A stretch of 64,000 nt of DNA, from contig NZ_CH672413.1 in NCBI RefSeq assembly GCF_000152705.1, positions 992,001-1,056,000 of the forward strand. Direction: 5' to 3'. The notes beneath the pieces were generated by a model, which was given only the letters and a program-made list of their open reading frames with translations, made no database searches and was not told the DNA's origin. The position numbers were made by a program, and so were the translations under genes. The stretch is from Janibacter sp. HTCC2649. Its GTDB lineage: Bacteria; Actinomycetota; Actinomycetes; Actinomycetales; Dermatophilaceae. Shown piece by piece: positions 2,289 to 63,868 of this stretch (positions are counted from its first letter, which is position 1; every line of letters starts with the position of its first letter).

Positions 2289-5200
2289 ATGCCCGCCTCC
2301 TCGCGATCGACCCGCTCTCGCACCTGGAAGGGCCTCGTCGCTGCGACGATCGCCCTCCCCCTCGGCCTCCTCGCTCCGACCGGAGCCCAGGCTTCCCCCA
2401 CTGGCCCTGACGGCGATGGCAACGCCCCCGTCACGGCCGGCGTTGATCCGTCAGCCGGGCGAATCGCCGCTGGCAGCTCCAACGTCAGCGAGCCGAGAAT
2501 CGTTGCGCCGCAGGCGAATCAGACCAACGATCGCCTCTGGCTGAGCGACGTGACCAGGCCGGTTGCACCCGCGGTGTCGCTGCGCTCCTTCGAGTGGCTC
2601 GATGCGGGCGGGTTCATGCGTGGCGACCTGCTCAAGGTCGACCTGGCCGCGGGTTCGGTGAAGCCGGACTACATCAACTCCGGCAAGGTGGCGTTGGCGA
2701 CCCCACTGACGGAGCAGGCCGAACCTCGCCGCGCCGTGGCGGCTGTCAACGGCGACTACTTCGACATCAACAACTCGAGCGCCCCCGAGGGCGGCGCCAA
2801 GCAACTCGACGGCACGGTCGTCAAGGGCCCGAACCCGGGCCACAACTACGCGCTCGGGGTGGGCGACACCAATCTCGGCCAGATCACCTCGATGTTCCTG
2901 CAGGGCAGCATCTCCCTTCCGACTGGATCCATCCCACTGGACGGCCTCAACCAGACCACCATCCCCACCAACGGAGTCACCGTCTTCACTCCCCTCTGGG
3001 GTGACTACACCCGAACCCGTGTCACCGGCGGAGCGACGAAGGTCCGCGAGGTCGTGACCCGCGGCGGCGTGGTCGAGTCCGTCGCCACGGTCGCCGGTGA
3101 AGGACAGCTCGACAAGGACCAGCTCGCCATCGTCGGACGCGGCGCCGGAGCGGACACACTGGCTGCCCTCAATGTCGGCGACAAGGTGTCCGTGGACTAC
3201 GCCCTGCGCAACGAGGGCGCCAACCTCAAGATGGCGATCTCCGGCAACACGATGCTGCTCAAGGACAACGTCGTCCTCCCCCAGACCGACAAGGCCATCC
3301 ATCCGCGCACCGCCATCGGTTTCGACGCGGACGGTTCCACGATGTTCGTTCTCACGGTCGACGGCCGCATGGCCGCCTCTCGGGGCATGACCTACGCAGA
3401 GACGGGCGCGTTCCTCAAGGAGGTCGGCGCCACCTCCGGCATCAACCTCGACGGCGGCGGGTCCTCGACGATGCTCGCCCGAGAGGCTGGCGAGACCGAC
3501 CTCGACGTCGAGAACCAGCCGTCCGACGGGCACCTGCGTCCCGTCCCCGATGGCGTCGGGCTGTTCGCCGCCGCCGGCTCCGGACAGGTGCGCGGCCTGC
3601 GTCTCATCACCACGTCCGACGAGGAGAACGTCGACCTCCTTCGCGTCTTCCCCGGCTTCACTCGGCAGCTCTCTGCCCTGGGACACGACGAGACGTACGC
3701 ACCCGTGGCGGCCTCACCGGCATACCGGGCGCAGGGGAACGCGACCATCTCGACAACGGGACTGCTGCGCGCGAGCGCACCAGGCGACGTCGTCGCCACC
3801 GCGGAGATCAAGGCCCTCAAGGAGACCCTCACGCTCACCGTGCTGGGACCGCTGGCACGCTTGCGGCCCAGCGTTGACAGGGTCTCGATCCTCGACCCCG
3901 CCGAGGCCTCGACCTTCCGCGTCGTCGGGGCTGATGCCAACGGTTTCGAGACTCCGCTGGAGACCGGCAACGTCACGCTGGACTACGACAAGGCACTGGT
4001 CGACGTCACGAGCGAGGGTGTCGACTTCACCGTCAGGGCCAAGCCGGGTGTCACCACCGGCGCCGTCGTCATCAAGGCCACCGCCAAGGGCGTCGTCACT
4101 CACATCCCGGTCGCGATCGGCTCGGTCAGCACGACCCTGAGCACCTTCGATGACGCCGCGACGTGGCGCTTCACCCAGGCCCGCGCGGCTGGCTCGGTCG
4201 AGCCAGCACCGGGTCGCGAGGGCGGCACCGGCCTGAAGATGAACTACGACTTCACCCTGTCGACGGCCACGCGGGTCGGCTACGCCCGACCGGCCACGCC
4301 GATCACGATCACCCAGGGCCAACCGCTCGCGCTGGGCGTCTGGGTCCTCGGTGACGGCAAGGGTGCGTGGACGTCGTTCGGCATCAGCGACGGCGAGGGC
4401 AAGGCCGCGTCGCTCTACGGGCCCTACATCACCTGGACCGGTTGGAAGTACATGGAAGTGCCCGTCCCGCAGACCCTCCCCGGACCGGTCACACTCAATT
4501 TCGTGGCGGCCATCGAGACGGGCGCGGCCCGCTCCTACACGGGCGCCATCGTCTTCGACGACCTGGTCGTCAAGACCGCTCCGCCCGTGAGCGGGCCTGA
4601 CGTCCCGGTCGTTCAGGACCCGGTGGTGCAGCAGCACACCGCCCTCAGCACGACCGGTGAGCAGTTCAGCTACGCAGTGATGTCGGACGGTCAGTTCACG
4701 GCAGACAACCAGTCGCTCGTGCCGGCCGTGCGTCGCACGATGCGCGAAATCGTCGCCAGCACACCGGATTTCGTCGTCATCACCGGTGACCTCGTCGACA
4801 CGGGCTACCCCGCCGACTTCGCGCTGGCCAAGAAAGTCATCGACGAGGAGCTCACCGCCAAGGGGGTGAAGTGGTACTACCTCCCGGGCAACCATGAGAT
4901 CTACGGCCCCGGGTCGACGAGCAACTTCAGCGCCGTCTTCGGGGCGACGCACCACAGCTTCGTCCACAAGGGCACGCGCTTCGTCCTGCTCGACTCCTCC
5001 ACGGGCACACTGCGCGGCGGCGGGTTCGACCAGTGGCAGATGCTGCGGTCGGCCCTCGATGACGCCACGACCAACGACGCCGTCAACGGTGTTGTCGTCG
5101 GCTGGCACCACCCGCCGCGCGACCCCAGCCCCGTCAAGGCATCGCAGATGCTCGACCGGGTCGAGGCCCAGACCGTGGAGAACTGGCTGTCCGACTTCCG

Positions 5201-5744
5201 CGCCAGGACCGGCAAGGGTGCGCTCTTCGTCGGTGGCCACGTCGGTGCCTTCTCCGCAGGGCGCGTCAACGCCGTGCCCTACGTCATCAACGGCAACTCG
5301 GGCAAGGCTCCATCGACCTCACCCGACGAGGGCGGCTTCTCCGGGTGGACCACCGTTCGCATCGACCCCGAGGCGCCTCGCACCCCAGCGCCCAAGCTCT
5401 ATCGCGTCGACCCGGCCGACCCCGGCCCTCACCCGTGGGCACGCGTCCAGATCCGTCCGCACGTCGACGAACTCACGGTGAGTATGCCGCCCCTCACCGT
5501 GGGTGCCTCGGTGCCCGTCACGACCACGGTCACCCAGGGCACGCGCACCTTCCCGCTCGCCTATCCGGTGAGTGCGTCGTGGAGCGGTGAACGGGTCCAC
5601 GTCGGAACGGGACCGGCCCCCGCAACTGCTGTCGCGGCATACTCCCCCGCGACCGGGAAGGTGACCGGCCTGCGGGCCGGAACGGGCACGCTCACGGTGA
5701 CCGTCAATGGCGTGAGCCGGACGGCCACGGTGACCGTCGGCTGA
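2289..5744 (+). CDS. Secreted phosphodiester glycosidase (NAGPA/DUF2233) fused to a calcineurin-like metallophosphatase with Ig-like C-terminus
   Basis: 1151 residues from the ATG at 2289, which follows GGTGG. A GTG at 2214 would add 25 residues before a clear signal peptide: basic start, hydrophobic core, AQA cleavage site near residue 35. The NAGPA-like domain shows AAVNGDYFD (about residue 152) and GINLDGGGSST (about 386). A middle beta-rich region follows, then a metallophosphatase with GDLVD (about 831), GNHE (866), GWHH (937) and GGHVG (981). The usual D-x-H is D-G-Q at about 798, and the last GHxH lacks its second His. The end resembles a Big2 Ig-like repeat. The family hydrolyses sugar-phosphodiester linkages in walls or teichoic-type polymers; the exact substrate is unknown. 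The protein is probably extracellular. Confidence 0.8.
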   Translation: MPASSRSTRSRTWKGLVAATIALPLGLLAPTGAQASPTGPDGDGNAPVTAGVDPSAGRIAAGSSNVSEPRIVAPQANQTNDRLWLSDVTRPVAPAVSLRSFEWLDAGGFMRGDLLKVDLAAGSVKPDYINSGKVALATPLTEQAEPRRAVAAVNGDYFDINNSSAPEGGAKQLDGTVVKGPNPGHNYALGVGDTNLGQITSMFLQGSISLPTGSIPLDGLNQTTIPTNGVTVFTPLWGDYTRTRVTGGATKVREVVTRGGVVESVATVAGEGQLDKDQLAIVGRGAGADTLAALNVGDKVSVDYALRNEGANLKMAISGNTMLLKDNVVLPQTDKAIHPRTAIGFDADGSTMFVLTVDGRMAASRGMTYAETGAFLKEVGATSGINLDGGGSSTMLAREAGETDLDVENQPSDGHLRPVPDGVGLFAAAGSGQVRGLRLITTSDEENVDLLRVFPGFTRQLSALGHDETYAPVAASPAYRAQGNATISTTGLLRASAPGDVVATAEIKALKETLTLTVLGPLARLRPSVDRVSILDPAEASTFRVVGADANGFETPLETGNVTLDYDKALVDVTSEGVDFTVRAKPGVTTGAVVIKATAKGVVTHIPVAIGSVSTTLSTFDDAATWRFTQARAAGSVEPAPGREGGTGLKMNYDFTLSTATRVGYARPATPITITQGQPLALGVWVLGDGKGAWTSFGISDGEGKAASLYGPYITWTGWKYMEVPVPQTLPGPVTLNFVAAIETGAARSYTGAIVFDDLVVKTAPPVSGPDVPVVQDPVVQQHTALSTTGEQFSYAVMSDGQFTADNQSLVPAVRRTMREIVASTPDFVVITGDLVDTGYPADFALAKKVIDEELTAKGVKWYYLPGNHEIYGPGSTSNFSAVFGATHHSFVHKGTRFVLLDSSTGTLRGGGFDQWQMLRSALDDATTNDAVNGVVVGWHHPPRDPSPVKASQMLDRVEAQTVENWLSDFRARTGKGALFVGGHVGAFSAGRVNAVPYVINGNSGKAPSTSPDEGGFSGWTTVRIDPEAPRTPAPKLYRVDPADPGPHPWARVQIRPHVDELTVSMPPLTVGASVPVTTTVTQGTRTFPLAYPVSASWSGERVHVGTGPAPATAVAAYSPATGKVTGLRAGTGTLTVTVNGVSRTATVTVG

Positions 5745-6626: not shown

Positions 6627-7444
6627 GCGTGTGCGGGCGACGATGCGTCGCTGGAGGTGACGGCCACGAGTTCACGCTCGAGGGTCTCGGTGTCGACCAT
6701 CAGGATCGTGTTGTCCGGCAGGGGCTCCCAGCCGGCCCCACGGATCCCGCTCGACGCGATGAGGACCCGCTCCTCGTCGGCGCGCATGGCCATCGTGAAG
6801 TAGCGGTCGAGATGGCCCTGCGGCGCCGTCGAGGCATCCGGGTAGAGCGCCAGGATGTCGTCGGTTGGCCCGGAGGCCAGGGCGTTGACGTGAACGGCAG
6901 CGAGACGGTGTGGCGCGAGGATGATCGCGTTGAGGCTCGAGTTCGGGAACTGGGCATGAAGGCGCGTCACCGCATCGATGATGCCCGAGTCGACGTCTTC
7001 GGCGTCCGCGACGCACTGCGCGACAAAACGAAAGTAGCGCTCACTGTCGGTGTCGCCTCGCAGGCCCTGGGCGAACTCGGGCCGCAGCAGTGCCTGCAGG
7101 GCGGAGATCGGCGCGATGCTGCCGTTGTGTGCCAGCGCCAGTTCGCCGCGCACAAAGGGGTGAGTGTTGCCGTCGGCGACGTCGAGCCCGTCGGTCGCCC
7201 ACCGAAGGTGCACCAGCCCACTCCCGGCCAGAGCCGTGTCGGCAAGTTGCCGGTATGCCGGGTCGTTGGCGGCGCTGTCCGGCGACGTTGCGCTGTGGAT
7301 CGCCTCAGAGTCTGCCTGCCATGCCATGCCCCACCCGTCTGCGTGCAGCTGCGAGAGCGAGGTGAACTCCGTGAACAACTCAGTGCCCAGGGACGTGGCC
7401 ACTGGTTCGGCCCGGCGGCCGGCGTATCCGAGCAAGCGACACAT
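6623..7444 (-). CDS. Class II glutamine amidotransferase-fold hydrolase (EgtC/YafJ-like)
   Basis: 273 residues when started at the ATG at 7444, which follows AAAGGTG and exposes the catalytic Cys2 (MCRLLGYAG). Longer starts would bury this nucleophile. Other family marks are HADGWGMAW, LVHLRWAT, NTHPF and ALAHNGSI. The best-known relative, EgtC, does not transfer ammonia but cleaves a gamma-glutamyl amide in ergothioneine synthesis. Beside a glutamine-synthetase-like ligase and an aminotransferase, the likely job is release of glutamate from a gamma-glutamylated intermediate, analogous to PuuD in putrescine degradation. That role is inference. The gene is upstream of and coupled to the RpiR regulator, and divergent from the ligase operon. 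Confidence 0.8.
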   Translation of the reverse strand: MCRLLGYAGRRAEPVATSLGTELFTEFTSLSQLHADGWGMAWQADSEAIHSATSPDSAANDPAYRQLADTALAGSGLVHLRWATDGLDVADGNTHPFVRGELALAHNGSIAPISALQALLRPEFAQGLRGDTDSERYFRFVAQCVADAEDVDSGIIDAVTRLHAQFPNSSLNAIILAPHRLAAVHVNALASGPTDDILALYPDASTAPQGHLDRYFTMAMRADEERVLIASSGIRGAGWEPLPDNTILMVDTETLERELVAVTSSDASSPAHA

Positions 7445-11763: not shown

Positions 11764-12906
11764 ATGAACCTGGACCCCTCCCTCGTCGACGGCCCTCTGG
11801 CCGAGGCCCTCGCGCACGTCGGCCTCATCGACCACCACGTTCACGGCGCCCTGCGCGCGACACCCGAGCGGCGCGACTGGGAAGCCCTCGTCACCGAGGC
11901 TCCGGCAGCCCCAGCGGTGGGGTCCATCTTCGACAGCCAGGTCGGGTTGGCCATGCGTCGCTGGTGTGCGCCGCTCCTCGACCTCGAGCCCCATGCGCCA
12001 GCTGACGACTACTGGGCGCGGCGGACCGAACTCGGTGAACAAGAGGTCACCAGAAGGCTCCTGACCGCGACGGGCGTCGACACCTGGCTCGTGGAGACCG
12101 GTTTCCAAGGAGACCTCGTGCTCGGCCCCGCCGAGATGGCGGCCGTGACCGGCACCGCCCGCGAGATCGTCCGTCTGGAGACGGTCGCCGAGGGCATCCT
12201 GCGCGACACGGGAGCGGACGGCTTCCATGCGGCATACGCTCCGGCCTTGGCGCAGGCGACGCAGGGCGCCGTGGGCACCAAGTCCGTGATCGCCTATCGG
12301 CACGGTTTCGACATTCCTGCCGAGCGACCGTCGGCGAGCGAGGTGACTCGGGCCGCGGGGCGGACCCTCGCCACCGATGCGACGCTCCCCCGCATCTCCG
12401 ACCCTGTCCTGCTGCGTCACCTTCTGTGGTGCGCCGTCGACCTCGGCCTGCCCATCCAGATGCACAGCGGCTACGGCGACCCGGACCTCGACCTGCACCG
12501 CGCCAATCCCCTGCTCCTCATGCCCTGGCTTCGCGCGGTTGAGCCCACCGGCGTTCCCGTCCTCCTGCTCCACAACTACCCGTTCCACCGCGAGGCCGGC
12601 TACCTCGCTCAGGTCTTCGACGTGGTCCACTGCGACGTTGGCCTGGCGATCAACTACACCGGCGCCCGGAGCCCGGCCATCATCGCCGAGTCCCTCGAAC
12701 TCACTCCGTTCCACAAACAGCTGTACTCGTCCGACGCCTGGGGTCCGGCCGAACTCCACTTGCTCGGCTCATGGCTGTGGCGACGTGGGATGGCGCGAGT
12801 TCTGGGAACCTTCGTCGACGACGGCGACTGGTCGATCGCCGACGCCCAACGCGTCGTGCACCTGGTGGCGTACGAGAACGCCCGCAGGGTCTATCGCCTG
12901 GGCTGA
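11764..12906 (+). CDS. Amidohydrolase-family protein (FluG N-terminal type)
   Basis: 380 residues from the ATG at 11764, chosen because AGGA sits 8 bp upstream; in-frame starts at 11746 (TTG) and 11755 are possible. Metal-site motifs of the TIM-barrel amidohydrolase family are seen: LIDHHVHGALR near the start, IQMHSGYGDPDLDLHRANP, VLLLHNYPFHREAGYLA and YSSDAWG. In fungal FluG and plant nodulin-type proteins this domain is fused in front of a glutamine-synthetase-like domain; here the two are separate genes of one operon. It may hydrolyse a gamma-glutamyl or related amide. The stop codon coincides with the start of a repeated scar sequence (12904-12948). Confidence 0.8.
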   Translation: MNLDPSLVDGPLAEALAHVGLIDHHVHGALRATPERRDWEALVTEAPAAPAVGSIFDSQVGLAMRRWCAPLLDLEPHAPADDYWARRTELGEQEVTRRLLTATGVDTWLVETGFQGDLVLGPAEMAAVTGTAREIVRLETVAEGILRDTGADGFHAAYAPALAQATQGAVGTKSVIAYRHGFDIPAERPSASEVTRAAGRTLATDATLPRISDPVLLRHLLWCAVDLGLPIQMHSGYGDPDLDLHRANPLLLMPWLRAVEPTGVPVLLLHNYPFHREAGYLAQVFDVVHCDVGLAINYTGARSPAIIAESLELTPFHKQLYSSDAWGPAELHLLGSWLWRRGMARVLGTFVDDGDWSIADAQRVVHLVAYENARRVYRLG

Positions 12907-16178: not shown

Positions 16179-16375
16179 CTACTCACTGCTCGTCGTGTGC
16201 TCAGCCATGGGCACAGCGAACTCCGCGACGAGGAGGGCCGATTCAGGCCTCGCCGCGGCAGAGAAGGAGGAGACGGTGCTGCACGACATCGAGTATGCCG
16301 CCCGCACCTGTTCCCGTCCATCGGCAGTCCCGATTCGCCCACGTTCCAAGACGGCGGAGCCGACATACTTCACCC

Positions 16376-20638: not shown

Positions 20639-20709
20639 CTGGCCGACGAGGCCAAGGGCACGTCAAAAGTCAGGCGACAGTGCGGCATACCCTCCGGCAT
20701 CCTGCTGCC

Positions 20710-21720: not shown

Positions 21721-22767
<1,047 letters not shown>

Positions 22768-24664: not shown

Positions 24665-24865
24665 GGGTGATTCGGCGCGCGATGGCGCCGCTCCTTCGCT
24701 GTTCTCGTCAGTTACGTATCAATGTCAGTTCTCGTTCCAACCCTCAACCTTGCCTTCACGAACCTGTGAGTTCAAATTGGCAGCGGCGACCCACCGGTGT
24801 CGCGCCCCCTTCTCGAGGGCACGCCGAACACACCTCGGGTATGCCGGGTGCGCACCTTCGTGGGG

Positions 24866-40345: not shown

Positions 40346-40413
40346 CCAGTCGAGAGGAGAGAACCCGCCGTGCCCAAGACGGCATACGCGGCGTGTTCTC
40401 TCCTCTCGACTGG
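40346..40413. terminator. Long bidirectional hairpin terminator carrying a CGGCATAC octamer
   Basis: Perfect 19-bp arms 40346-40364 and 40395-40413 between the convergent Nudix and nitroreductase-like genes. The loop holds a nested pairing and one CGGCATAC copy (40380-40387). Confidence 0.8.
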
Positions 40414-41362: not shown

Positions 41363-41369
41363 ACGACAC

Positions 41370-45026: not shown

Positions 45027-45071
45027 ACGAGAGGCGTATGCCGTGCAGACCCCACGGCATACGCCTCTCGT
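45027..45071. terminator. Hairpin terminator built from two opposed GTATGCCG octamers
   Basis: Perfect 19-bp arms 45027-45045 and 45053-45071 with a 7-base loop. The stem includes GTATGCCG (45036-45043) facing CGGCATAC (45055-45062). Confidence 0.85.
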
Positions 45072-48244: not shown

Positions 48245-48286
48245 AACGACGAAACCGCTGGGGTATGCCGCGTGCTCGCCTTCCGC

Positions 48287-51664: not shown

Positions 51665-51793
51665 TGCGCAGCCACGGACAGCTCCGACCCCCCATCCACA
51701 GGCGAGTCGCCCGCAAGGTGACCCGACGGCGAGGCGAGTCCAACGGAACGGGAGATGTCTGCGGACGCGAGCGGGCGGCATACCCGGTTGACG

Positions 51794-52660: not shown

Positions 52661-55392
52661 GAGTCGATCTCCTCGCGCAGGGTGTCGGGCGTGGTGCAGA
52701 TGAGGTGGGCCACGAGCGCGGTCCACCCGGTCTGGTGGGAGGCGCCGAGACCGACACCGTTGTCGCCGTTGAAGTGCTCGCTGAACGTCGGGTGGGCATC
52801 CCAGAGCGGACCCGGCGGATGCTCACGGGGAGTGCCCGGCCGGCGGCCACCATCGCCGGGCAGGAAGAGCGAGATGAGCCGCTCACGAACGCCGAAAGCG
52901 GCTTCCTCGAGCGGAACCTTATGGCCAGAGCCAGTCGGGAACTCGACCTCGACGTCGCCGTCGGCGCCGTCCGCGATGACGAGCAGCGCGTCGAGGATGA
53001 GGACGTTGGTCGGGAACCAGACCGGGCCACGCCAGTTCGAGTTGCCGCCGAACATCCCGGTCGAGGACTCGCCCGGGTCGTACTGGATGTGCACCGACGT
53101 GTCGCCCACGGCGATCTCGGCTCCACCTCGATAGGCCGCCGACAACGAACGTATGCCGTGCGGCGAGAGGAACTCGTCCTCGTCGAAGAGCCTGCGCAGC
53201 AACGCCTCCAGCCGTGAACGCACCACAGGGGTGAGGCTGTTGTGCACGACGTCGCCGTCCTGGCTGTGCAGCAGTGAGTCGGTGAGATCCGGGCGGCGGT
53301 CCTGCAGCCACTGCAACCGGGACCGGAAGTCGGTGAGCTCGTTGAAGGCCCACGCCGGCACGTTGGCGACGGCGATGAGCGGGAGCAACCCGACGAGGGA
53401 GCGCACCCGCACCGGCGAGCCGTTGTCGTGCTCGTCGACGAGGACGTCATAGAAGAACTCGTCCGTGTCGTCCCACAGCGAGACGCCCTCGGTGCCGAAC
53501 GTCTCCATGGCCTCGGCGATGGAGAAGAAGTGCTCGAGGAAGGTTGTCGCGAGGCCGTCCCAGTCGCGGTCGATGCGACTCAGCTCGAGCGCGATCCGCA
53601 ACATCTGGAGGCAGGTGAACGCCATCCAGCTCGTCGCGTCGGACTGCTCCAGCCGCCATCCGGGCGGCACCTCGCGCGACCGGTCGAAGACGCTGATGTT
53701 GTCCATCCCGAGGAAGCCGCCCTCGAAGAGGTTGGACCCGTCGGAGTCCTTGCGATTGAGCCACCAGGAGAAGTTGAAGAGCAGCTTGGTGAAGACGCGG
53801 ACGAGGAAGCCGTGGTCCTGCGCGCCGTCGAGGACATAGACGTGCCACGCCGCCCATGCGTGCACGGGCGGGTTCACGTCGCTGAACTGCCATTCGTATG
53901 CCGGGAGCTGGCCGTTGGGATTCTGGCTCCACTCCCGACACATCAACATGAGCTGGTTCTTGGCGAAGGCCGGGTCCATGTGGGCAATCGCCACGGTGTG
54001 GAAGGCGAGGTCCCAGGCGGCGAACCAGGGGTACTCCCACTCGTCGGGCATCGAGATGACGTCGGCGAGGGCGACGTGGGTCCACGAGGTGTTGCGGGCG
54101 TAGGGCTCGCGGGCGCGGCGTGCCTCGGGAGGCGGCGGACCGGCGGGGTCGCCCTCGAGCCACTCGCGCACGTTGTAGCGATAGAGCTGTTTGCCCCAGT
54201 TGAGCCCGGCAAACGCGCGGCGTGCGACGAGGCGCTCCTCGTCCGCGGTGTGCTCCGGGATGATCGCCCCATAGAACGCGTCCGCGTCGCTGCGACGGGC
54301 AGTGAGGACGTCGTCGAAACCCTGCCCGAACGCGTCGGCCAGTCGTGGCTGCGCACTGGTGCTGTCGTCGGTGGGAACACCGGCCCACGCGTCGTCGTTG
54401 AGCCGCAACCGCACTCGCACCGTCTCACCGGGGGCGACCGCATCGAAGTGGTAGCGCAGGGCCACCTTGGTCCCCCGCCCATCGGTGGCGAGCAGGCTGG
54501 GGTCGGCATGGACGATCGCACGGTCGACAGCGTTCTTGGGGTGCGGGCTGAGACTCTCGCCATCGCCGAAGACCTCGGTCACGTTGGTCTCGTTGTCACA
54601 GACCAGCGTCTCGGGAACACCCTCGGCGATGAGCGTGACGACACCGATGTGCGCGTGCGTGGCCCGCAGGACGACCGTGCCCTCCGGCGCGTCACCCAGC
54701 ACCTCGATGACCGGCTTGCGGTCGTCACGACCCCACGCCCACGTGTTGCGGAACCAGAACTGCGGGACGAGGTCGAGCGGCGCCGCCTCAGGGCCGTGGT
54801 TGGTCGCCTCGAAGGTCACGCAGATGTCGCCGGGAGTGCCCTTCGCATGGGTCGTGACGACGTCGAAGAAGCGGTCCTCGTCGAGGACCCCGGTGTCGAC
54901 GAGCTGGATCTCGGGCACATCGCGACCGGACGACGCATTGTTGGCGCGCAAAGCGGCATACGGGAAGGCTTTGTGCGGGTAGCGGTAGAGGTGCTGCGCC
55001 CAGCTGTGGGTGGGGGTGGCGTCGAGGTGCCACCAGTACTCCTTGGCGTCCTCGCCGTGGTTGCCCTCGCTGTTGGTGAGGCCGAAGTAGCGCTCCTTGA
55101 GGCGGTCGTCCTGCCCGTTCCACACCGCGATGGCGAGGTTGAGGAAGCCGTAGCGGTCGCAGAGGCCGGCGATCCCGTCCTCACCCCAGCGGTAGGTGCG
55201 GGCGTGCGCGTGGTCGAACGGGAAGAAGGACCAGGCCTCGCCGTCGGCCGAGTAGTCCTCGCGGACCGTTCCCCACTGGCGCCCGGACACATAGGGACCC
55301 CACGCGCGCCAGGCGTCGCCGTCGTGGGGCGAGGCGTCGAGTCGGAGGTGCTCCTCGGTCTGGGGGCGCCCCTCGGGCTCGACAGACGTCAT
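52657..55392 (-). CDS. MGH1-like glycoside hydrolase (GH63-type glucosidase)
   Basis: 911 residues from the ATG at 55392, with GGAG 4 bp upstream. No signal peptide is seen. The (alpha/alpha)6 barrel catalytic part (about residues 380-880) includes WEYPWFAAWDLAFHTVAIAH, NFSWWLNRKDSDGSNLFEGG, and MFGGNSNWRGPVWFPTNVL, typical of the MGH1-like family in GH63. An N-terminal beta-sandwich precedes it (SFFPFDHAHARTYRWGEDGI). Members hydrolyse alpha-glucosyl or mannosylglycerate-type substrates. The 38-bp gap to the divergent helicase gene must hold both promoters. Confidence 0.85.
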   Translation of the reverse strand: MTSVEPEGRPQTEEHLRLDASPHDGDAWRAWGPYVSGRQWGTVREDYSADGEAWSFFPFDHAHARTYRWGEDGIAGLCDRYGFLNLAIAVWNGQDDRLKERYFGLTNSEGNHGEDAKEYWWHLDATPTHSWAQHLYRYPHKAFPYAALRANNASSGRDVPEIQLVDTGVLDEDRFFDVVTTHAKGTPGDICVTFEATNHGPEAAPLDLVPQFWFRNTWAWGRDDRKPVIEVLGDAPEGTVVLRATHAHIGVVTLIAEGVPETLVCDNETNVTEVFGDGESLSPHPKNAVDRAIVHADPSLLATDGRGTKVALRYHFDAVAPGETVRVRLRLNDDAWAGVPTDDSTSAQPRLADAFGQGFDDVLTARRSDADAFYGAIIPEHTADEERLVARRAFAGLNWGKQLYRYNVREWLEGDPAGPPPPEARRAREPYARNTSWTHVALADVISMPDEWEYPWFAAWDLAFHTVAIAHMDPAFAKNQLMLMCREWSQNPNGQLPAYEWQFSDVNPPVHAWAAWHVYVLDGAQDHGFLVRVFTKLLFNFSWWLNRKDSDGSNLFEGGFLGMDNISVFDRSREVPPGWRLEQSDATSWMAFTCLQMLRIALELSRIDRDWDGLATTFLEHFFSIAEAMETFGTEGVSLWDDTDEFFYDVLVDEHDNGSPVRVRSLVGLLPLIAVANVPAWAFNELTDFRSRLQWLQDRRPDLTDSLLHSQDGDVVHNSLTPVVRSRLEALLRRLFDEDEFLSPHGIRSLSAAYRGGAEIAVGDTSVHIQYDPGESSTGMFGGNSNWRGPVWFPTNVLILDALLVIADGADGDVEVEFPTGSGHKVPLEEAAFGVRERLISLFLPGDGGRRPGTPREHPPGPLWDAHPTFSEHFNGDNGVGLGASHQTGWTALVAHLICTTPDTLREEIDS

Positions 55393-55430: not shown

Positions 55431-58025
55431 ATGACTTCGCATCCGTTGGCCGAACGCGCACTGTCGTCCGTGACAACGGACGCCGACGAGTTGTATGCCG
55501 TGTTCTCGGCCTGGGCGGTCGAGTCCGGGATCGAGCTCTATCCCCACCAGGACGAGGCCGTCATCGAGGTGGTGTCGGGGCGGCACGTGGTGCTGGCGAC
55601 TCCGACCGGGTCCGGCAAGTCGTTGGTGGGTGTGGCGGCGCACTTTGCTGCGCTGGCTGGCGACCGGGTGAGCTTCTACACGGCGCCGATCAAGGCTTTG
55701 GTGAACGAGAAGTTCTTTGCGCTGTGCGACGTGTTCGGCGCGGAGAACGTGGGTTTGCTGACGGGTGATGCCGCGGTGAACGCGGACGCGCCCATCATCT
55801 GCTGCACTGCTGAGGTCTTGGCCAACATCGCTCTGCGAGAGGGCAGTTCGGCTGATGTCGGATTCGTCGTCATGGACGAGTTCCACTACTACGCCGACGG
55901 TCAGCGCGGCTGGGCGTGGCAGGTGCCGCTGCTCGAGCTGCCCCAGGCGCAGTTCCTGTTGATGTCGGCGACGTTGGGCGAGATGACCGAGATCCGCGAG
56001 GACCTCGTGCGTCGGACCGGGCGTGAGGTCGCGGTCGTGACGACGGCCGAACGACCGGTGCCGCTGTCCTTCACCTGGTCGCTCACTCCTTTGCCGGAGA
56101 TGATGGAGGAGATCGTCACGACGCACCAGGCTCCGGTCTACGTCGTGCACCCCACGCAGCAGCTCGCGGCGGAGCACGCGGCGTCGCTCACGACCCTGAA
56201 GCTCCTCACGTCGGAGGAGAAGCTGGCGATCGCCGAGCGACTGGCCCCGGTGCGCTTCGCTGCTGGGTTCGGCAAGACGCTCTCCTCGCTGCTGCGCAAG
56301 GGAATCGGCGTGCACCACGCCGGCCTCCTCCCCCGCTACCGCCGGATCGTGGAGCAGCTCGCCCAGGCCGGGCTGCTCAAGGTCATCGCCGGGACCGACA
56401 CCCTGGGCGTCGGCATCAACGTGCCGATCCGCACCGTGCTGTTCACCGGACTGGCCAAGTTCGACGGCCAGCGCGACCGGGTCTTCCGCTCGCGCGAGTT
56501 CCACCAGATCGCCGGTCGGGCCGGGCGCGCGGGCTACGACACGAGCGGTTCGGTGGTCGTCCAGGCACCGCCGCACATCATCGAGAACGAACGCAACATC
56601 GCCAAGGCCGGGGACGACCCCAAGAAGCTGCGCAAGGTCCAGCGCCGCAAGCCACCCGAGGGCTCGATCGTGTGGACCGAGCAGACCTTCGACAAGCTCG
56701 TGTCCAGCGAACCCGAGGCCCTGACCTCCAAGATGCGCATCGACAACTCGATGATCCTCGCGCTCATGGCCCGCCCCGGCGACCCCGTGGCTGCCCTGAG
56801 CCGACTCGTGCGCGACAACCACGAGAGCCTTCCCGGTCAGGCACGTCTGGCGCGGCGTGCGATCCGGCTGGGCCGTTCGCTCCTCGACTCGGGCGTCGTG
56901 GTGCGGTTGCCCGAGCCTGCCGCCGACGGGCGCACCGTCGATCTCACCGTCGACCTGCCGGCGGACTTCGCTCTCAACCAGCCGCTGGCGCACTTCGCCC
57001 TGGCCGTCCTGGATCTGCTCGACCCCGACTCCCCCACGCATGCCCTCGACGTCGTCTCGATCATCGAGTCCGTGCTCGACTCCCCCCGGCCCGTGCTCAG
57101 GGCGCAGCAGTGGACCGCCCGGGGCGAGCGCATCGCCGAGCTCAAGTCCGAGGGCGTCGAGTACGACGAGCGAACCGCCATCGTCGAGGAGATCACCTGG
57201 CCGCGCCCACTCCTCGAGATGTTGGAACCCGCCTACGAGACCTACCGGCAGACGCACCCCTGGCTCCCCGACGAGGCGCTCGACCCCAAGAGCATCGTCC
57301 GCGAGATGTGGGAGCAGGCGATGAGCTTTGGCGACCTCATCCGCCGCTACGGCCTGACCCGCTCCGAGGGCGTGGTGCTGCGCTACCTCTCAGACGCCTA
57401 CCGGACCTTGCGCCAAACCGTGCCCGAGGCACACCGCGACGAGGAGCTCGACACCCTCATCGAGTGGCTCGGCGAGACCATCCGCCAGACCGACTCCTCG
57501 CTCATCGACGAGTGGGCCGCACTGACTGATCCCGAGTCCGTGCGCAACGCCGCCGCCACGCACGGCGAAGCCCCGCCGCCTCCGCGCCCGATCACCGCCA
57601 ACGAGAGGGCCTTCCGCGCGATGGTCCGCCAGGCGATGTGGCGTCGGGTCGAGCTGGCCGACCGCGACAACGTCAACGCCCTGGCCCTGTTCGAGGCCGC
57701 GGCCGCCGCCATCCCCGAGGACGGCCGCGCTGCGGTCATGACCTATGGGGCCTGGGACGAGGCGCTCGCCGCCTACTGGGACGAGCACGGCTCCATAGGC
57801 CTCGACGGAGACGCCCGAAGCCCACAGCTCCTCCAGATCGAACCGGACAAGGCCGAAGTTCCCGGCCTCGACGACGAGACCGAGCACCGCATCTGGCGCG
57901 TCCGTCAGGTGCTTGCCGATCCGGCGGACGACCGCGACTGGGTCATCGAGGCCATCGCCGACCTGGACGCCAGCGACGCGGCTGGCGAGCTCGTCATGAC
58001 CGCCACCGCCCTCCGCCGCCTTTAG
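55431..58025 (+). CDS. Ski2-like DEAD/DEAH-box helicase with DUF3516
   Basis: 864 residues. Walker A is LATPTGSGKSLVG (about residue 55); motif II is VMDEFHYYADG, i.e. D-E-F-H; motif III LLMSATLGEM; motif VI QIAGRAGRAGYDT. The 400-residue C-terminal part is the DUF3516 region (PLLEMLEPAYETYRQTHPWL), as in actinobacterial Ski2/HelY-like helicases. The likely role is RNA or DNA unwinding in turnover or repair; the substrate is not established. GAGGAT precedes the ATG. Confidence 0.9.
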   Translation: MTSHPLAERALSSVTTDADELYAVFSAWAVESGIELYPHQDEAVIEVVSGRHVVLATPTGSGKSLVGVAAHFAALAGDRVSFYTAPIKALVNEKFFALCDVFGAENVGLLTGDAAVNADAPIICCTAEVLANIALREGSSADVGFVVMDEFHYYADGQRGWAWQVPLLELPQAQFLLMSATLGEMTEIREDLVRRTGREVAVVTTAERPVPLSFTWSLTPLPEMMEEIVTTHQAPVYVVHPTQQLAAEHAASLTTLKLLTSEEKLAIAERLAPVRFAAGFGKTLSSLLRKGIGVHHAGLLPRYRRIVEQLAQAGLLKVIAGTDTLGVGINVPIRTVLFTGLAKFDGQRDRVFRSREFHQIAGRAGRAGYDTSGSVVVQAPPHIIENERNIAKAGDDPKKLRKVQRRKPPEGSIVWTEQTFDKLVSSEPEALTSKMRIDNSMILALMARPGDPVAALSRLVRDNHESLPGQARLARRAIRLGRSLLDSGVVVRLPEPAADGRTVDLTVDLPADFALNQPLAHFALAVLDLLDPDSPTHALDVVSIIESVLDSPRPVLRAQQWTARGERIAELKSEGVEYDERTAIVEEITWPRPLLEMLEPAYETYRQTHPWLPDEALDPKSIVREMWEQAMSFGDLIRRYGLTRSEGVVLRYLSDAYRTLRQTVPEAHRDEELDTLIEWLGETIRQTDSSLIDEWAALTDPESVRNAAATHGEAPPPPRPITANERAFRAMVRQAMWRRVELADRDNVNALALFEAAAAAIPEDGRAAVMTYGAWDEALAAYWDEHGSIGLDGDARSPQLLQIEPDKAEVPGLDDETEHRIWRVRQVLADPADDRDWVIEAIADLDASDAAGELVMTATALRRL

Positions 58026-58187: not shown

Positions 58188-59255
58188 CTAATTGCGGGGG
58201 TCGGGCTTCCGCACCAGGTTGTCGAGGCGTCTTGTCATGGTGATGTCGTCGCGCTCGTCGCCGTGGGCCACGCGGATGGCTCCGAGGACTCGACCGGACT
58301 CGTGGTAGCCGCAGGCCTCGTAGAACTTGGTCGTGCCGGTGCCGCTGCGCACGCCGAGGGTGAGGATCTCGACGCCGAGGTCGCGGGCCACGCGGTGCGT
58401 TCCGGCCATCAGGAGGCGACCGAGGTTGCGGCCCCGGGCCTCCGGGTCTGTCATGACCGTGTAGACCCAGCGGCCGTGCGAGAGAATGGGATTGGGACCC
58501 TCGGACAGGAAGGCGAGACCCAGGACGCGGTTGTTGGCGGCTGAGCGCTGGAGGACTGCGACCCGCATGCCGGCGGACATGTCCTGCTCGGCCGCAGAGA
58601 GTCGGGCGTCCACGGCGGCGCGGGGTGCGCCCGGCGTGAAGCCCACCGCTCCCCCGGCATCGTTGGTGCGGATCCACAGGTCGAGGATCTGCTCGCGGGT
58701 GGCGTCGTCGAACGACGTCACGGACTCCATCCGGGGAGCCTCGAAGACCGTCGACGGTGGCTCGTCCGGGAGGTCGTCATGCAGCACCCGCGTCCCCACC
58801 CGCTCGAAGCCGGAGCCCATCGCCGTCTTCACCGAGGGGGTGTTGATCTCCTTGACGAGCGCCCGGACGGGCAGCTCGGGCAGGTGCTCAACGGCGTGAG
58901 CTGCGGACGCCCGCGACATCTCCTTGCCGAACCCCCGCCCCTGGTGGTCGAACCCGAGCCGGTAGTAGAGATTGAGGAAGTGCGCATCCCCGTCGATCTG
59001 CTTTAGGCCGCACACCCCGACGACCGAGCCCGCCTCGCGATCCTGCGCCACCCAGAAGCCGAATTCCCGCTCGTCCCAATGCGTTCGGGTCGCCTCGAAG
59101 AACTCCTCGGCCGCTTCATCGGTGCTGGCCATGGCGTGCGGTGCGTGCCAGTACGTGCGCGAATCCCGGTGGAGGGCAACCCACTGGTCGCGGTCAGCGA
59201 CGGTCGGTGGACGGAGCGTCAGGCGAGCGGTCTCGACAACAGGAGCGAACGGCAT
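58188..59255 (-). CDS. Tandem-GNAT acetyltransferase
   Basis: 355 residues. Domain 1 (about 1-165) resembles RimJ/RimL type (ETARLTLRPPTVADRDQWVA, YRLGFDHQGRGFGKEMSRAS). Domain 2 (about 185-355) has MTDPEARGRNLGRLLMAG as acetyl-CoA loop. No substrate can be named. The ATG lies inside a GTATGCCG octamer and TAAGAT is 6 nt upstream. The upstream GNAT gene ends 10 bp away, so the promoter overlaps its last codons. Confidence 0.78.
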   Translation of the reverse strand: MPFAPVVETARLTLRPPTVADRDQWVALHRDSRTYWHAPHAMASTDEAAEEFFEATRTHWDEREFGFWVAQDREAGSVVGVCGLKQIDGDAHFLNLYYRLGFDHQGRGFGKEMSRASAAHAVEHLPELPVRALVKEINTPSVKTAMGSGFERVGTRVLHDDLPDEPPSTVFEAPRMESVTSFDDATREQILDLWIRTNDAGGAVGFTPGAPRAAVDARLSAAEQDMSAGMRVAVLQRSAANNRVLGLAFLSEGPNPILSHGRWVYTVMTDPEARGRNLGRLLMAGTHRVARDLGVEILTLGVRSGTGTTKFYEACGYHESGRVLGAIRVAHGDERDDITMTRRLDNLVRKPDPRN

Positions 59256-59261
59256 ACCCAG

Positions 59262-59852: not shown

Positions 59853-61334
59853 TCAGACCCGGTATGCCGCCAGCTCGGCTGCGAGGTCGGCGTTCACCCG
59901 AGCGGTGACGTGCGTTCCCTCGCTCACGTGCTCGCTCGCGAGGATCTCGCCCTCTTCGTGAAGCCGGCTGACGAGGTCACCGCGGTCATAAGGGACCAAC
60001 ACGTCGACGGAGATGTCCGGCTGGGGCAACTCGTCGGCGATGAGCGCCACCAGGGCGTCCATGCCAGCGCCCGTACGCGCCGAGACCACGATCACATGCT
60101 TCTCGTTGCGGCGCAGACGGTCGATCACCTCCGAGTCGGCGATGTCGGCCTTGTTGACGACGATGACCTCTTTGACGTCGGTCGCGTCGACATCGGCGAG
60201 CACGGAGCGCACGGCCGAGATCTGGCCCTCGGGGTCGGGGTGCGAGCCGTCGACGACGTGGAGGAGCAGGTCGGACTCGGCCACCTCCTCGAGGGTGGAC
60301 CGGAAGGCCTCGACGAGCTGGTGCGGCAGGTGACGGACGAAGCCGACGGTGTCGGTGAACGTGAACTCGCGCCCATCAGGGGTCTCGCTGCGACGCACCG
60401 TCGGGTCGAGGGTGGCGAAGAGCTGGTTCTGCACCAGCACGCCAGCACCGGTGAGCCGGTTGAGGATTGAGGACTTGCCGGCATTGGTGTAGCCGGCGAT
60501 CGCGACGCTGGGGATGGCGTTCGCGCGGCGCGAACCGCGTTTGGTGTCGCGGTGCGTCTTCATGCCGGCGATGTCGCGCTTGAGCTTCGCGACGCGCGTG
60601 TTGATGCGGCGGCGGTCGAGCTCGATCTTGGTCTCACCCGGACCACGCGAACCCATGCCCTGACCGCCGGCGGCCTGGCCACCGGCCTGACGGGACATCG
60701 ACTCACCCCAACCACGCAGACGCGGCAGGAGGTACTGCAACTGGGCCAGCTCAACCTGGGCCTTGCCCTCACGACTCTTGGCGTGCTGGGCGAAGATGTC
60801 GAGGATCAGGGCCGTGCGGTCGATGACCTTGACCTTGACGACGTCCTCGAGCGCACGGCGCTGCGATGGAGCCAGCTCGCTGTCGCAGATGACCGTGTCG
60901 GCACCCTCGTTGATGACGATCTCGCGCAGCTCCTCGGCCTTGCCCTTGCCGAGATAGGTCGCGGTGTCGGGCTTCTGCCGTCGCTGCATGACGCCCTCGA
61001 GCACCTCGGCCCCGGCCGTCTCGGCCAGGGCGGCGAGCTCGCGCAGGGAGTTCTCGGCGTCGACGATGGTGCCTTCGCACCAGACGCTCGCGAGGACGAC
61101 GCGCTCGAGCCGCAGCTGGCGGTACTCGACCTCGCTGATGTCCTCGAGCTCGGTCGAGAGGCCTTGGACGCGACGCAGCGCGGCGCGTTCCTCGCGCTCG
61201 AGCTGGTCCCCGTCGTAGAGGGCTGAAGGTGCGCTCTCGTCGCCATCGCCCTCGACCAGGAACCCGTCCTCGTCGAAGGCGTCGTCGGAGAGGGCGTCAG
61301 CTTGCCCAGAGAAGATGTGATGTCTCGCAGTCAT
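59853..61334 (-). CDS. hflX: Ribosome-associated GTPase HflX
   Basis: 493 residues. The HflX-specific N-terminal domain (about 70-270) includes GAEVLEGVMQRRQKPDTATYLGKGKAEEL and GMGSRGPGETKIELDRRRI. The G domain has IAGYTNAGKSSILNRLTGA, FTDTVGFVRHLPHQLVEAF and VVNKADIA. HflX splits stalled 70S ribosomes under heat or antibiotic stress. An acidic N-terminal extension of about 55 residues is actinobacterial in style. It is divergent from the methyltransferase gene with only 21 bp between start codons. Confidence 0.95.
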   Translation of the reverse strand: MTARHHIFSGQADALSDDAFDEDGFLVEGDGDESAPSALYDGDQLEREERAALRRVQGLSTELEDISEVEYRQLRLERVVLASVWCEGTIVDAENSLRELAALAETAGAEVLEGVMQRRQKPDTATYLGKGKAEELREIVINEGADTVICDSELAPSQRRALEDVVKVKVIDRTALILDIFAQHAKSREGKAQVELAQLQYLLPRLRGWGESMSRQAGGQAAGGQGMGSRGPGETKIELDRRRINTRVAKLKRDIAGMKTHRDTKRGSRRANAIPSVAIAGYTNAGKSSILNRLTGAGVLVQNQLFATLDPTVRRSETPDGREFTFTDTVGFVRHLPHQLVEAFRSTLEEVAESDLLLHVVDGSHPDPEGQISAVRSVLADVDATDVKEVIVVNKADIADSEVIDRLRRNEKHVIVVSARTGAGMDALVALIADELPQPDISVDVLVPYDRGDLVSRLHEEGEILASEHVSEGTHVTARVNADLAAELAAYRV

Positions 61335-61355: not shown

Positions 61356-61979
61356 ATGACCGACTCGGGGCGAACGGATTCGGGGGACCACTACTTCACG
61401 GCTTCTCCGGCGAGCCCGGATGAGCGCCGCCCACTGGCCGTCACGCTCGCCGGACGCAGCGTCACGGTCCAGGTTGCACCCGGGATCTTCAGCCCCGGCG
61501 GACTCGACAAGGGCACGGCCGTCCTCCTCGACGAGGTCCCCGATCCCCCACCTTCGGGCCGCTTCCTCGACATCGGCTGCGGCTGGGGCCCCATCGCCCT
61601 GACCCTCGGCCTGCTCTCCGAGCACGCCGAAGTCCTTGCGGTTGACGTCAACGAACGCAGTGTCGACCTCACCAACCGCAACGCCACCACCCTCGACCTC
61701 CCCCACGTCACGGCGGTGACCCCGGACGCGGTCGACAGCAACGCGACCTACGACCTCATCTGGTCCAACCCCCCGATCCGCATCGGCAAGGCCGCCCTCC
61801 ACGACCTCCTCCACCTCTGGCTCCCCCGCCTCGCCCCCGACGGCACGGCCTATCTCGTCGTCCAGCGCAACCTCGGGTCCGACAGCCTGCAGCGCTGGAT
61901 CGAGTCAGACCTGGGTATGCCGTGTGCCCGCTTCGCGACCAACAAGGGCTTCCGCGTCCTCAAGGTCGACAAGAGCTGA
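61356..61979 (+). CDS. RsmC/MTS-type class I methyltransferase
   Basis: 207 residues. SAM-binding motif I is FLDIGCGWGPIALTLGLL (about residues 64-81), motif II VLAVDVNERSVDLTNRNA, and the base-methylating motif IV is SNPPIRIGKAALHDLL. The length equals the catalytic half of RsmC, which methylates G1207 of 16S rRNA, so a small rRNA guanine-N2 methyltransferase is likely. It follows its start without a leader. A clear hairpin follows its stop. Confidence 0.88.
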   Translation: MTDSGRTDSGDHYFTASPASPDERRPLAVTLAGRSVTVQVAPGIFSPGGLDKGTAVLLDEVPDPPPSGRFLDIGCGWGPIALTLGLLSEHAEVLAVDVNERSVDLTNRNATTLDLPHVTAVTPDAVDSNATYDLIWSNPPIRIGKAALHDLLHLWLPRLAPDGTAYLVVQRNLGSDSLQRWIESDLGMPCARFATNKGFRVLKVDKS

Positions 61980-61986
61980 TCTCCTG

Positions 61987-62023: not shown

Positions 62024-62038
62024 CAAGAGACGGGTTGA

Positions 62039-63868
62039 TCACTCCTGCGGGTCGACGACCATCGCCGAGCCGCCACCGCGACGAGTCGGTTCGGCAGCCG
62101 CCGTCCACAGGGACGGGGTCAGGCTGCGGATGGCCGTTCCGTTGCCGATCACCGGAACGTCGCGCAACACGTGTCCCTTGGCCGTGAGTTCGGCACCGAT
62201 GGCGGTGCCGAAAATGGCGCGCTCCGCGTCCTCCGCGCCGTTGCGGGACGAGAGTCGCGGCGCGGCCACAGCGTCACCCACCGGCAGACCTCGGTCGACG
62301 ACGCCGGCGATGATCTGGGCGACGGTCGTGATGATCGTCGCGCCTCCGGGGCTGCCTGCGGTGAGCCAGGGCCTGCCGTCCTTGAGGATGATCGACGGGC
62401 TCATGGAGCTGCGCGGGCGCTTGCCAGCAGCTGGCAGGTTCGGGTCCGGCACTCCGGCCATGGTGGGCGCGAAGTTGAAGTCCGTGAGCTCATTGTTGAG
62501 CAGGAAGCCCCAGCCCGGCACCACCATGCCGGAGCCGCCGTACTGCTCGATCGTCAGCGTGTAGGTGACGACGTCGCCCCACTTGTCGGTGACGGTGAGC
62601 GACGTCGTCGAGTGTCCATCCCCGGGCAGGAGGGTGGTGCCAGCGGGCGTGCACTCGCCGTTGTAGCTGCCGTCGGGCGAGCCGAAGGGCACCGGTCGTG
62701 TCTGGGCCCTGTCCGGGTTGAACACGCACGAGCGCTCATCGGCGAACTCCTGTGAGGTGAGCTCACCTGTCGGCACGCCCGCGACGTCACCGACATAGCG
62801 GTTGCGGTCGGCGAAGGCCATGGCCGACGCCTCGCTGAACCAGTGCAGGTACTCCGCCTCCGAGAGGTCCGCCACGGCCGTGCCGGTGCGCTCCTCGAAC
62901 GCCTCGAGGAGGTTGAGGATCTCCGAGACGGCGATGCCGCCACTGCTCGGGGTGTCCATGCCGTAGACGTCGAGACCCTTGTGCTCGCTGTGCGTCGGTG
63001 CCTTGTGATTGACCTTGTATGCCGCGAGGTCGGCTGCCGTCAGCTGCCCCTTCGGGACCGTCACCCCGGGCGCCGTGGTGGGGTTCTGGACCTCCTTCAC
63101 GACGGCCGCACCCAAGCGACCCGTGTGCAAGGAGGCGATGCCGTGGGTGCGCAGTTCGCGATAGGCCTTGGCAAGGTCCGGGTTGCGCTGAACGCCGCCG
63201 ACGGGCACGGGCGCCCCACCCGGCAGGTAGATCGCGGCCGTCGCCGGGAACATCGCGAACCGCTTGGCGTTGCCGAGCGTGTCTGCGTAGAAGGTGTCGT
63301 CGACGACGAATCCCTTGCGGGCGATCTCCTCGGCCGGCTTGAGGATCTGGTTGAGACTCATCGTCCCGTAGGTCTTGAGGGCTTCGTCCCACGTCGCAGC
63401 CGTGCCCGGCGTACCCACGGACAGTCCGGAATTCACCACCGTGTCGAAGTTCATCGGCGAGCCATCCGGGTTGAGGAAGACCTTGTCGTGGAACGTCGCT
63501 GGTGCCGTCTCGCGCCCGTCCAACGTGCTGACCTTGCCCGTCTGCGCGTCGTAGTGGACGAAGAAACCACCCCCACCGATCCCCGAAGAGTACGGCTCCA
63601 CCGTCGCCACAGCCGCCGCCGTCGCCACCGCCGCATCAGCCGCCGTCCCACCTCTCTTGAGGATGTCGATGCCCACTTGCGACGCAATGGGATCCACGGA
63701 AGCAACTGCTCCCCCACCACCCGTCATCACCGGCACCTTGGGCAGCTCATGCCCCACAGGCGGCGGCCCGCTGAGCGTGGGTTGAGGAGCAGCCGTGGCA
63801 GGCACGGCAAGAGCCGCAGCCACACCACCTGCAGCAACAAGGGCGAGGACTGTCGTAGGAGTTCTCAT
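62039..63868 (-). CDS. ggt: Secreted gamma-glutamyltransferase
   Basis: 609 residues from the ATG at 63868, which exposes a signal peptide (about 1-28, ending ATAAP); an in-frame GTG/ATG upstream to 63943 would hide it. Ggt features: ASQVGIDILKRGGTAADAAVA, SSGIGGGGFFVHY, and the autocleavage/catalytic Thr in GDGHSTTSLTVTDKWGD (about residue 415), then SSMSPSIILKDGRPWLTAGSPGG. It hydrolyses or transfers gamma-glutamyl groups of glutathione-like or gamma-glutamyl compounds outside the membrane. Whether it feeds the gamma-glutamyl module at 6-13 kb is open. Confidence 0.94.
   Translation of the reverse strand: MRTPTTVLALVAAGGVAAALAVPATAAPQPTLSGPPPVGHELPKVPVMTGGGGAVASVDPIASQVGIDILKRGGTAADAAVATAAAVATVEPYSSGIGGGGFFVHYDAQTGKVSTLDGRETAPATFHDKVFLNPDGSPMNFDTVVNSGLSVGTPGTAATWDEALKTYGTMSLNQILKPAEEIARKGFVVDDTFYADTLGNAKRFAMFPATAAIYLPGGAPVPVGGVQRNPDLAKAYRELRTHGIASLHTGRLGAAVVKEVQNPTTAPGVTVPKGQLTAADLAAYKVNHKAPTHSEHKGLDVYGMDTPSSGGIAVSEILNLLEAFEERTGTAVADLSEAEYLHWFSEASAMAFADRNRYVGDVAGVPTGELTSQEFADERSCVFNPDRAQTRPVPFGSPDGSYNGECTPAGTTLLPGDGHSTTSLTVTDKWGDVVTYTLTIEQYGGSGMVVPGWGFLLNNELTDFNFAPTMAGVPDPNLPAAGKRPRSSMSPSIILKDGRPWLTAGSPGGATIITTVAQIIAGVVDRGLPVGDAVAAPRLSSRNGAEDAERAIFGTAIGAELTAKGHVLRDVPVIGNGTAIRSLTPSLWTAAAEPTRRGGGSAMVVDPQE

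Follow-up and report, generated by a model that had tools for sequence, protein, structure and literature searches.

The window analysed here comprises 64,000 nucleotides of Janibacter sp. HTCC2649 (contig NZ_CH672413.1, positions 992,001 to 1,056,000). Its genes, lepA among them, and its intergenic regions carry the octamer GTATGCCG, which is probably a DNA-uptake or self-recognition sequence for natural transformation, as judged from sequence data. Exact matching located 44 copies (20 on the plus and 24 on the minus strand), the first at 3718 and the last at 63017-63024; a hand count in the preliminary description of this DNA had given about 43. Dinucleotide shuffles of the window contained 0.85 copies on average, and 44 was reached in 0 of 100 shuffles. 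A third-order Markov model trained on the window predicted 1.6 copies, and GTATGCCG is the most over-represented octamer of the window. Chance as source of the count was set aside on the strength of shuffles and model, and the early claim of a frequency far above composition is borne out. All 44 occurrences of GTATGCC in the window have G as the next base.

The genome holding the window (G000) has 4,235,068 bases in seven contigs, including a chromosome contig (C1) of 4.22 Mb. It contains 2,982 copies of GTATGCCG, 1,486 forward and 1,496 reverse, versus 59 (35 and 24) of the reversed word, used as control. Like a DNA uptake sequence (DUS) or uptake signal sequence (USS), the octamer is a short word over-represented genome-wide on both strands. 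The lack of strand bias described earlier holds in window and genome, and none appears in 20-kb blocks over 400 kb. Spacing is near random, with a mean of 1.54 kb and a standard deviation of 1.74 kb. Of 263 copies from this genome, 48% are followed by T as ninth base and 1% by A. Weak flank preferences occur at +18 (T, 40%) and -8 (A, 34%); beyond these, no conserved repeat was found in the flanks of the G000 copies.

Selection acts on the DNA level. Genes were predicted with a simple, self-trained caller, so that their borders are approximate. In 364 kb of G000, an octamer-poor island excluded, 56 copies lie in 40.2 kb of intergenic DNA (1.39/kb) and 175 in 323.8 kb of genic DNA (0.54/kb), an intergenic density about 2.6 times higher; six of 237 copies that straddle a gene border are left out of these sums. 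Codon choice was counted over the same 364 kb. TAT and TAC stand at 82:16 in motif context versus 299:1599 elsewhere, GCA precedes TAC in 54 of 87 cases versus 0 of 146, and ATA is used in 21 of 53 cases versus 36 of 4,281. Rare codons are forced only in motif context, as proposed earlier for TAT, GCA and ATA from the window, and these counts, with the intergenic excess, support the accompanying claim that DNA and not protein is selected. Several reading frames are used, as described before, at very uneven rates. Among 184 genic copies (464 kb), 85 read xxG-TAT-GCC-Gxx and 57 xCG-GCA-TAC; the four remaining frames hold 22, 14, 5 and 1, the Val-Cys-Arg and Arg-His-Thr frames together six. Two outcomes had been named in advance as fatal to a marking role, genome-wide counts near Markov expectation and normal codon usage at a common dipeptide. 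Neither occurred: the counts greatly exceed what a Markov model predicts, and the motif is associated with abnormal codons.

Ten neighbour pairs in the G000 sample lie less than 60 bp apart, nine of them in opposed orientation. Three opposed pairs were folded and gave hairpins of -37 to -45 kcal/mol. The pair at 45036/45055, one of these three, forms a long hairpin of -41.7 kcal/mol versus -16.4 kcal/mol in shuffles. It had been taken for a terminator; the opposed arms of a strong hairpin are confirmed, and since no T-run follows, the structure is called a hairpin here. The copy at 40380, formerly assigned to a hairpin loop, stands at the top of another strong hairpin and is partly paired, not purely in the loop. 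That hairpin (40350-40409) has a long GAGAGGAGAGAAC stem, and a similar GAGAGGAGAGAAC stretch lies beside another octamer copy near C1:270,550. DNA-level selection, tolerant frames, intergenic enrichment and opposed hairpin pairs are features shared with DUS and USS. The copies in the window are collected in Table 1. A protein encoded at 55431-58025 of the window has Hel308-like helicases as best NCBIfam matches, far below cut-offs.

Table 1. Positions of the GTATGCCG octamer in the 64-kb window
Feature	Position	Strand	Basis
GTATGCCG copy	3718..3725	-	exact match
GTATGCCG copy	5482..5489	+	exact match
GTATGCCG copy	5635..5642	-	exact match
GTATGCCG copy	7253..7260	+	exact match
GTATGCCG copy	12230..12237	-	exact match
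GTATGCCG copy, intergenic	16293..16300	+	exact match, gene calls
GTATGCCG copy	17354..17361	+	exact match
GTATGCCG copy	18284..18291	+	exact match
GTATGCCG copy	18541..18548	-	exact match
GTATGCCG copy	19579..19586	+	exact match
GTATGCCG copy	20683..20690	-	exact match
GTATGCCG copy	22158..22165	-	exact match
GTATGCCG copy	22227..22234	-	exact match
GTATGCCG copy	23005..23012	-	exact match
GTATGCCG copy, intergenic	24839..24846	+	exact match, gene calls
GTATGCCG copy	26946..26953	+	exact match
GTATGCCG copy	29194..29201	+	exact match
GTATGCCG copy	29331..29338	-	exact match
GTATGCCG copy	30985..30992	+	exact match
GTATGCCG copy	32538..32545	-	exact match
GTATGCCG copy	33001..33008	-	exact match
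GTATGCCG copy, intergenic	34848..34855	+	exact match, gene calls
GTATGCCG copy	36756..36763	-	exact match
GTATGCCG copy	37374..37381	+	exact match
GTATGCCG copy	38525..38532	-	exact match
GTATGCCG copy, intergenic, top of hairpin (~40350-40409)	40380..40387	-	exact match, gene calls, folding
GTATGCCG copy	40670..40677	-	exact match
GTATGCCG copy	41357..41364	-	exact match
GTATGCCG copy in lepA	43721..43728	-	exact match, protein annotation
GTATGCCG copy in lepA	43980..43987	-	exact match, protein annotation
GTATGCCG copy, intergenic, left arm of hairpin	45036..45043	+	exact match, gene calls, folding
GTATGCCG copy, intergenic, right arm of 45036 hairpin	45055..45062	-	exact match, gene calls, folding
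GTATGCCG copy	46379..46386	-	exact match
GTATGCCG copy, intergenic	48263..48270	+	exact match, gene calls
GTATGCCG copy	49795..49802	-	exact match
GTATGCCG copy, intergenic	51776..51783	-	exact match, gene calls
GTATGCCG copy	53151..53158	+	exact match
GTATGCCG copy	53896..53903	+	exact match
GTATGCCG copy	54954..54961	-	exact match
GTATGCCG copy	55493..55500	+	exact match
GTATGCCG copy across predicted gene start, partly genic	59250..59257	-	exact match, gene calls
GTATGCCG copy	59862..59869	+	exact match
GTATGCCG copy	61915..61922	+	exact match
GTATGCCG copy	63017..63024	+	exact match

A stretch of 90.7 kb at C1:148,598-239,271 holds six copies, versus about 59 expected from the surrounding density, at about equal GC content. 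Nine of its proteins were scanned, three as cut pieces: three are P-type metal ATPases, one is primase-like, and the rest are a secretion ATPase, a LysM protein, a subtilase piece and two proteins without Pfam match. The stretch is mobile-looking and may represent a mobile island. Among its genes is a row encoding about 480-510 amino acids each; the two that were scanned lacked a Pfam match. Tetrasphaera phage TJE1 (GC 57.7%) has two copies in 49 kb, the same number as for the reversed word. The octamer is scarce in foreign DNA, as are DUS and USS, in this small sample of one presumed island and one phage. A Z1-domain protein at C1 34-37 kb lies inside an octamer-poor, lower-GC stretch (30-50 kb), which may be a defence island.

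Judged by LepA, the closest genome with a name is that of Knoellia: the window's protein shares 95% identity with its counterpart in Knoellia locipacati, compared with 78-87% for the other Intrasporangiaceae-type genera listed, a group which GTDB places in Dermatophilaceae. High counts of GTATGCCG (939 to 4,724) were obtained in 21 of 36 family genomes: the own genus contributes all of its nine, and the others are G011, G012, G013, G015, G019, G020, G023, G025, G028, G029, G032 and G034. Counts are intermediate in G024 (235), G026 (293) and G027 (196) and low (11 to 95) in another 12. Among named loci, the word occurs in Knoellia, Terrabacter, Tetrasphaera australiensis, Humibacillus xanthopallidus, Arsenicicoccus and Ornithinimicrobium. 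Neither GTATGCCG nor an enriched variant is present in the 21.8-kb loci of Phycicoccus endophyticus, Janibacter sp. Soil728 and Kytococcus aerolatus. Of 248 genomes drawn from the order, 19 belong to the family, and 11 of these are GTATGCCG-rich. None of the 229 genomes outside the family exceeds 177 copies, and the top one also has 135 of the reversed word.

Variant words were sought by sample scans of 15-400 kb around the word, followed by whole-genome counts. GGATGCCG reaches 3,949 copies in G033, 3,816 in G024 and 1,336 in G009, with 260 to 976 in other family genomes (58 genomes searched); the locus of a Humibacillus metagenome-assembled genome also has GGATGCCG. GTATGCGG is frequent in G027 (1,204); among the 18 genomes searched, G019 follows with 433 copies, and none of the remaining 16 exceeds 96. 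GTATGACG is frequent in G034 (1,954), G011 (1,557), G012 (834) and G019 (597), whereas none of the remaining 14 of 18 exceeds 78; in G011 and G034 it stands beside GTATGCCG, which is also high there. G020 prefers GAATGCCG (27 versus 1.6 expected in a 40-kb sample) and also carries GTATGCCG. In G023 the octamer is embedded in the longer word CGTATGCCGCTG, with further preferences extending to +18 (T, 74%), so that recognition may involve a longer site there. GTACGCC was at first taken as a dialect in G030 and G031. This status is doubtful, because TAC-GCC is the default Tyr-Ala coding at this GC content and control words are also high in G031. No such word was detected in 20-120 kb samples of nine of the 36 family genomes (G010, G014, G016, G017, G018, G021, G022, G026 and G035). 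A second family of the order (f19) has a related word of its own, GGATGCCT, which occurs 65 to 1,807 times in the 17 genomes examined, versus 88 times in G000. The six genomes of genus g48 in this family have 540-1,807 copies of GGATGCCT(C) versus 14-27 of the reversed word, and the lowest counts among the other f19 genomes do not rise above background. In G055 (f19), the leading 9-mer is GGATGCCTC, with 33 copies versus 1.2 expected in 60 kb.

A tree was built with FastTree from LeuS, ComEC, DegV and PlsY of 41 genomes, with genes missing in some. GTATGCCG is found in both large family clades but is missing from the early pair G010/G014 and from G016 and G017; most of the family has therefore probably inherited it from a common ancestor. 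GGATGCCG arose at least twice, in G009 beside Knoellia and in G033 with G024 (support 0.96), by a parallel T-to-G switch. Several losses have occurred, for example in G018 beside G012 (0.99) and in G022 beside G019 (1.0). The dialects follow phylogeny, as in DUS and USS. The four genes contain 48 sites, 32 in a single genome and 16 shared, some across genera. Nine differ in word between genomes, some of them involving the doubtful GTACGCCG. In-place swaps are clear for G027, which has GTATGCGG at two sites occupied by GTATGCCG in other genomes, and for G034, which has GTATGACG at one. Aligned window copies are kept in 11 of 16 cases in K. locipacati (matched octamers 35.5%), 4 of 8 in K. koreensis (21.5%), 3 of 6 in H. 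xanthopallidus (26.0%), 3 of 8 in Terrabacter aerolatus (22.4%) and 0 of 2 in T. australiensis (36.7%). Motif-free P. endophyticus (0 of 10; matched octamers 18.4%) and Janibacter (0 of 8; 20.3%) keep none. The metagenome-assembled genome with GGATGCCG keeps none of five and has GGATGCCG at two of the five. Conservation in orthologues, a check suggested at the outset, is above chance in motif-bearing relatives. The family-wide octamer system with dialects is new relative to the preliminary description.

Competence genes, also suggested for inspection, are present. In G000, comEA (SLBB and HHH domains) and comEC are located at C1:7838-11157, and ComEC was detected in 57 out of 58 genomes. G000 also has, near C1:2.005-2.009 Mb, a helicase-linked Tad cluster, which encodes CpaE-like, TadA, TadB and TadC proteins, a DUF4244 Flp-like pilin, a PF13400 pilin and TadE, the TadE match lying below the Pfam cut-off. 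The helicase-linked TadA family (TIGR03819) was detected in 35 of 35 genomes searched, 23 of them of the family, and in 31 above cut-off. Candidate readers of the word are TadE, the PF13400 pilin of this cluster, or ComEA. The PF13400 pilin is our guess for a first-choice receptor because of its two cysteines, seen by eye in the 28 aligned sequences. In G003, a member of the own genus with 2,805 octamers, the Flp pilin reading frame diverges part-way from its kin, and no good TadE was found in a 20-kb stretch of the Tad cluster.

Uptake-biased transformation would explain jointly the abundance, the codon cost, the intergenic excess, the island gap, the dialects and the losses. The Tad-pilus/ComEA/ComEC route would include a surface protein that binds octamer-bearing DNA preferentially, and the imported DNA of relatives would recombine into the chromosome. 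Octamers would accumulate because alleles bearing them are copied more often than alleles without, and would do so where protein and RNA function tolerate them. Drift in receptor preference would be followed by the octamer of the genome, resulting in dialects; loss of specificity or of uptake would lead to decay. The wider proposal, which we regard as evenly poised, is that a Gram-positive family possesses sequence-specific uptake with at least four one-letter dialects, evolved separately from those of Neisseria and Pasteurellaceae and with a Tad minor pilin or ComEA as reader, that f19 has its own word, and that self-marking may be widespread in the order.

Several results weigh against uptake as the function. 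The competence genes expected of a DUS or USS system are present, yet ComEC and the Tad cluster occur in motif-free genomes too; of the nine motif-free family genomes, all have TadE and at least six have the PF13400 pilin. The machinery for this reason does not predict the motif, and Tad ATPases, ComEC and TadE were rejected as reader genes by presence and absence. In TadE, the PF13400 pilin, Flp, ComEA and ComEC, 0 or 1 residue per protein is private to the lineages with the switch to GGATGCCG, and control comparisons gave 0 to 4 (some controls lacking a sequence), so that no specificity residue above control level was found in pilins or ComEA. One-mismatch words stay at background (315 observed versus 296 expected), which indicates sharp specificity; under a copying-drive model, a surplus of decayed copies might have been expected. 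Other bearers have more of the reversed word (54 to 454 copies in the GTATGCCG-rich genomes), and their enrichment margin is smaller as a result. The smallest is that of G023, with 1,142 GTATGCCG versus 453 reversed words, where the longer context GCCGTATGCC contains both. The phrase "uptake sequence" does not occur in the two papers on Micrococcus luteus that were searched for it, among them PMC4322843 (main text). The original idea of an uptake- or genome-marking sequence is partly supported, by enrichment, DNA-level selection, opposed intergenic pairs, strand balance, island gap and dialects; the proteins compared singled out no receptor.

The octamer could instead be the site of a nucleoid or chromosome-organising protein, or the trace of a genome-marking process other than uptake. 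Motif-free relatives retaining competence genes fit this explanation, which we consider unlikely: the parallel dialect switch, the losses, the opposed intergenic pairs and the near-absence from the island look like the pattern of an uptake sequence, and we know of no chromatin precedent for it. Quite unlikely is a methylation or restriction mark, kept as target of a conserved methyltransferase. PF07669 methylases (type IIG/BREX-like; BREX, bacteriophage exclusion) are usual readers of asymmetric words. Of 25 genomes with the motif or a dialect, eight, G000 included, gave no match to this family, the only methylase family searched, and it was provisionally set aside as reader. The model for such a mark is HIP1 (highly iterated palindrome 1), an abundant cyanobacterial octamer linked to orphan methyltransferases; some genomes carry variants of it (PMC4390886, in part). 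GTATGCCG resembles it in abundance and variants; HIP1 is palindromic, whereas GTATGCCG is not its own reverse complement.

A signal read by a translocating enzyme, such as Chi, FtsK orienting polar sequences (KOPS) or other architecture imparting sequences (AIMS), is very unlikely. Signals of the Chi and KOPS type are oriented with replication. The genome strand totals and the 20-kb blocks over 400 kb reveal no orientation bias along replichores, the early argument against a KOPS-like polar motif is upheld, and polarity was set aside; opposed intergenic pairs and an island gap would not be expected either. Chi sites are one class of over-represented oligomer (PMC4390886, in part), and Chi motifs evolve (PMC8022716, in part). 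A by-product of frequent Tyr-Ala dipeptides or of a repeat element has a negligible chance: the Tyr-Ala and Ala-Tyr frames do hold 142 of 184 genic copies, but the motif codons are the rare ones, intergenic DNA is richer than genes, the flanks lack a repeat, and the codon counts at the motif versus elsewhere refute it.

To our knowledge, uptake sequences have been described in two Gram-negative families. If uptake is confirmed, the octamer would be a notable find for actinobacteria: a third case, of independent origin, in Gram-positive bacteria and with machinery of the Tad type, would show that sequence self-recognition evolves repeatedly. It would indicate where to seek a new class of DNA receptor, and the GTATGCCG and GGATGCCG lineages would be natural pairs for finding specificity residues. 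The right octamer on donor DNA would be a simple genetic tool for soil actinobacteria that are hard to transform. Among the papers listed by full-text searches of PMC, with subscription journals mostly outside, there was none on an actinobacterial uptake sequence, as judged by titles and abstract starts, and no competence study of this Intrasporangiaceae/Knoellia group; a search for octamer and complement gave one paper, containing the complement a single time.

In M. luteus, ComEA/ComEC and tad clusters with TadE-like and PF13400-like minor pilins are needed for transformation (PMC4322843, in part). The same gene types occur in G000; the difference is that GTATGCCG is not enriched outside the present family. 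The USS of Haemophilus influenzae, with core AAGTGCGGT, has about 1,300 copies, and opposed copies form stem-loops (PMC5217627, in part). Copy number scale and opposed copies in stem-loops are shared with GTATGCCG; the core and the phylum are different. Uptake function has been demonstrated for USS, whereas GTATGCCG is known here from sequence alone. USS has weak flanking positions about one helix turn away, which resemble +18 T and -8 A at GTATGCCG. Eight DUS dialects are described for Neisseriaceae, where a genome holds about 940 to 5,900 copies and some family members have none (PMC3630211, in part), and an atypical DUS distribution in mobile elements marks conjugative islands in this family (PMC7371117, in part). 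The actinobacterial word differs in sequence, phylum and its Tad/Flp-type machinery; the receptor in Neisseria is ComP. It appears to behave like a DUS in the respects computed and is a candidate member of this class: both are short asymmetric words of similar copy range, with related dialects following the family tree and word-free members.

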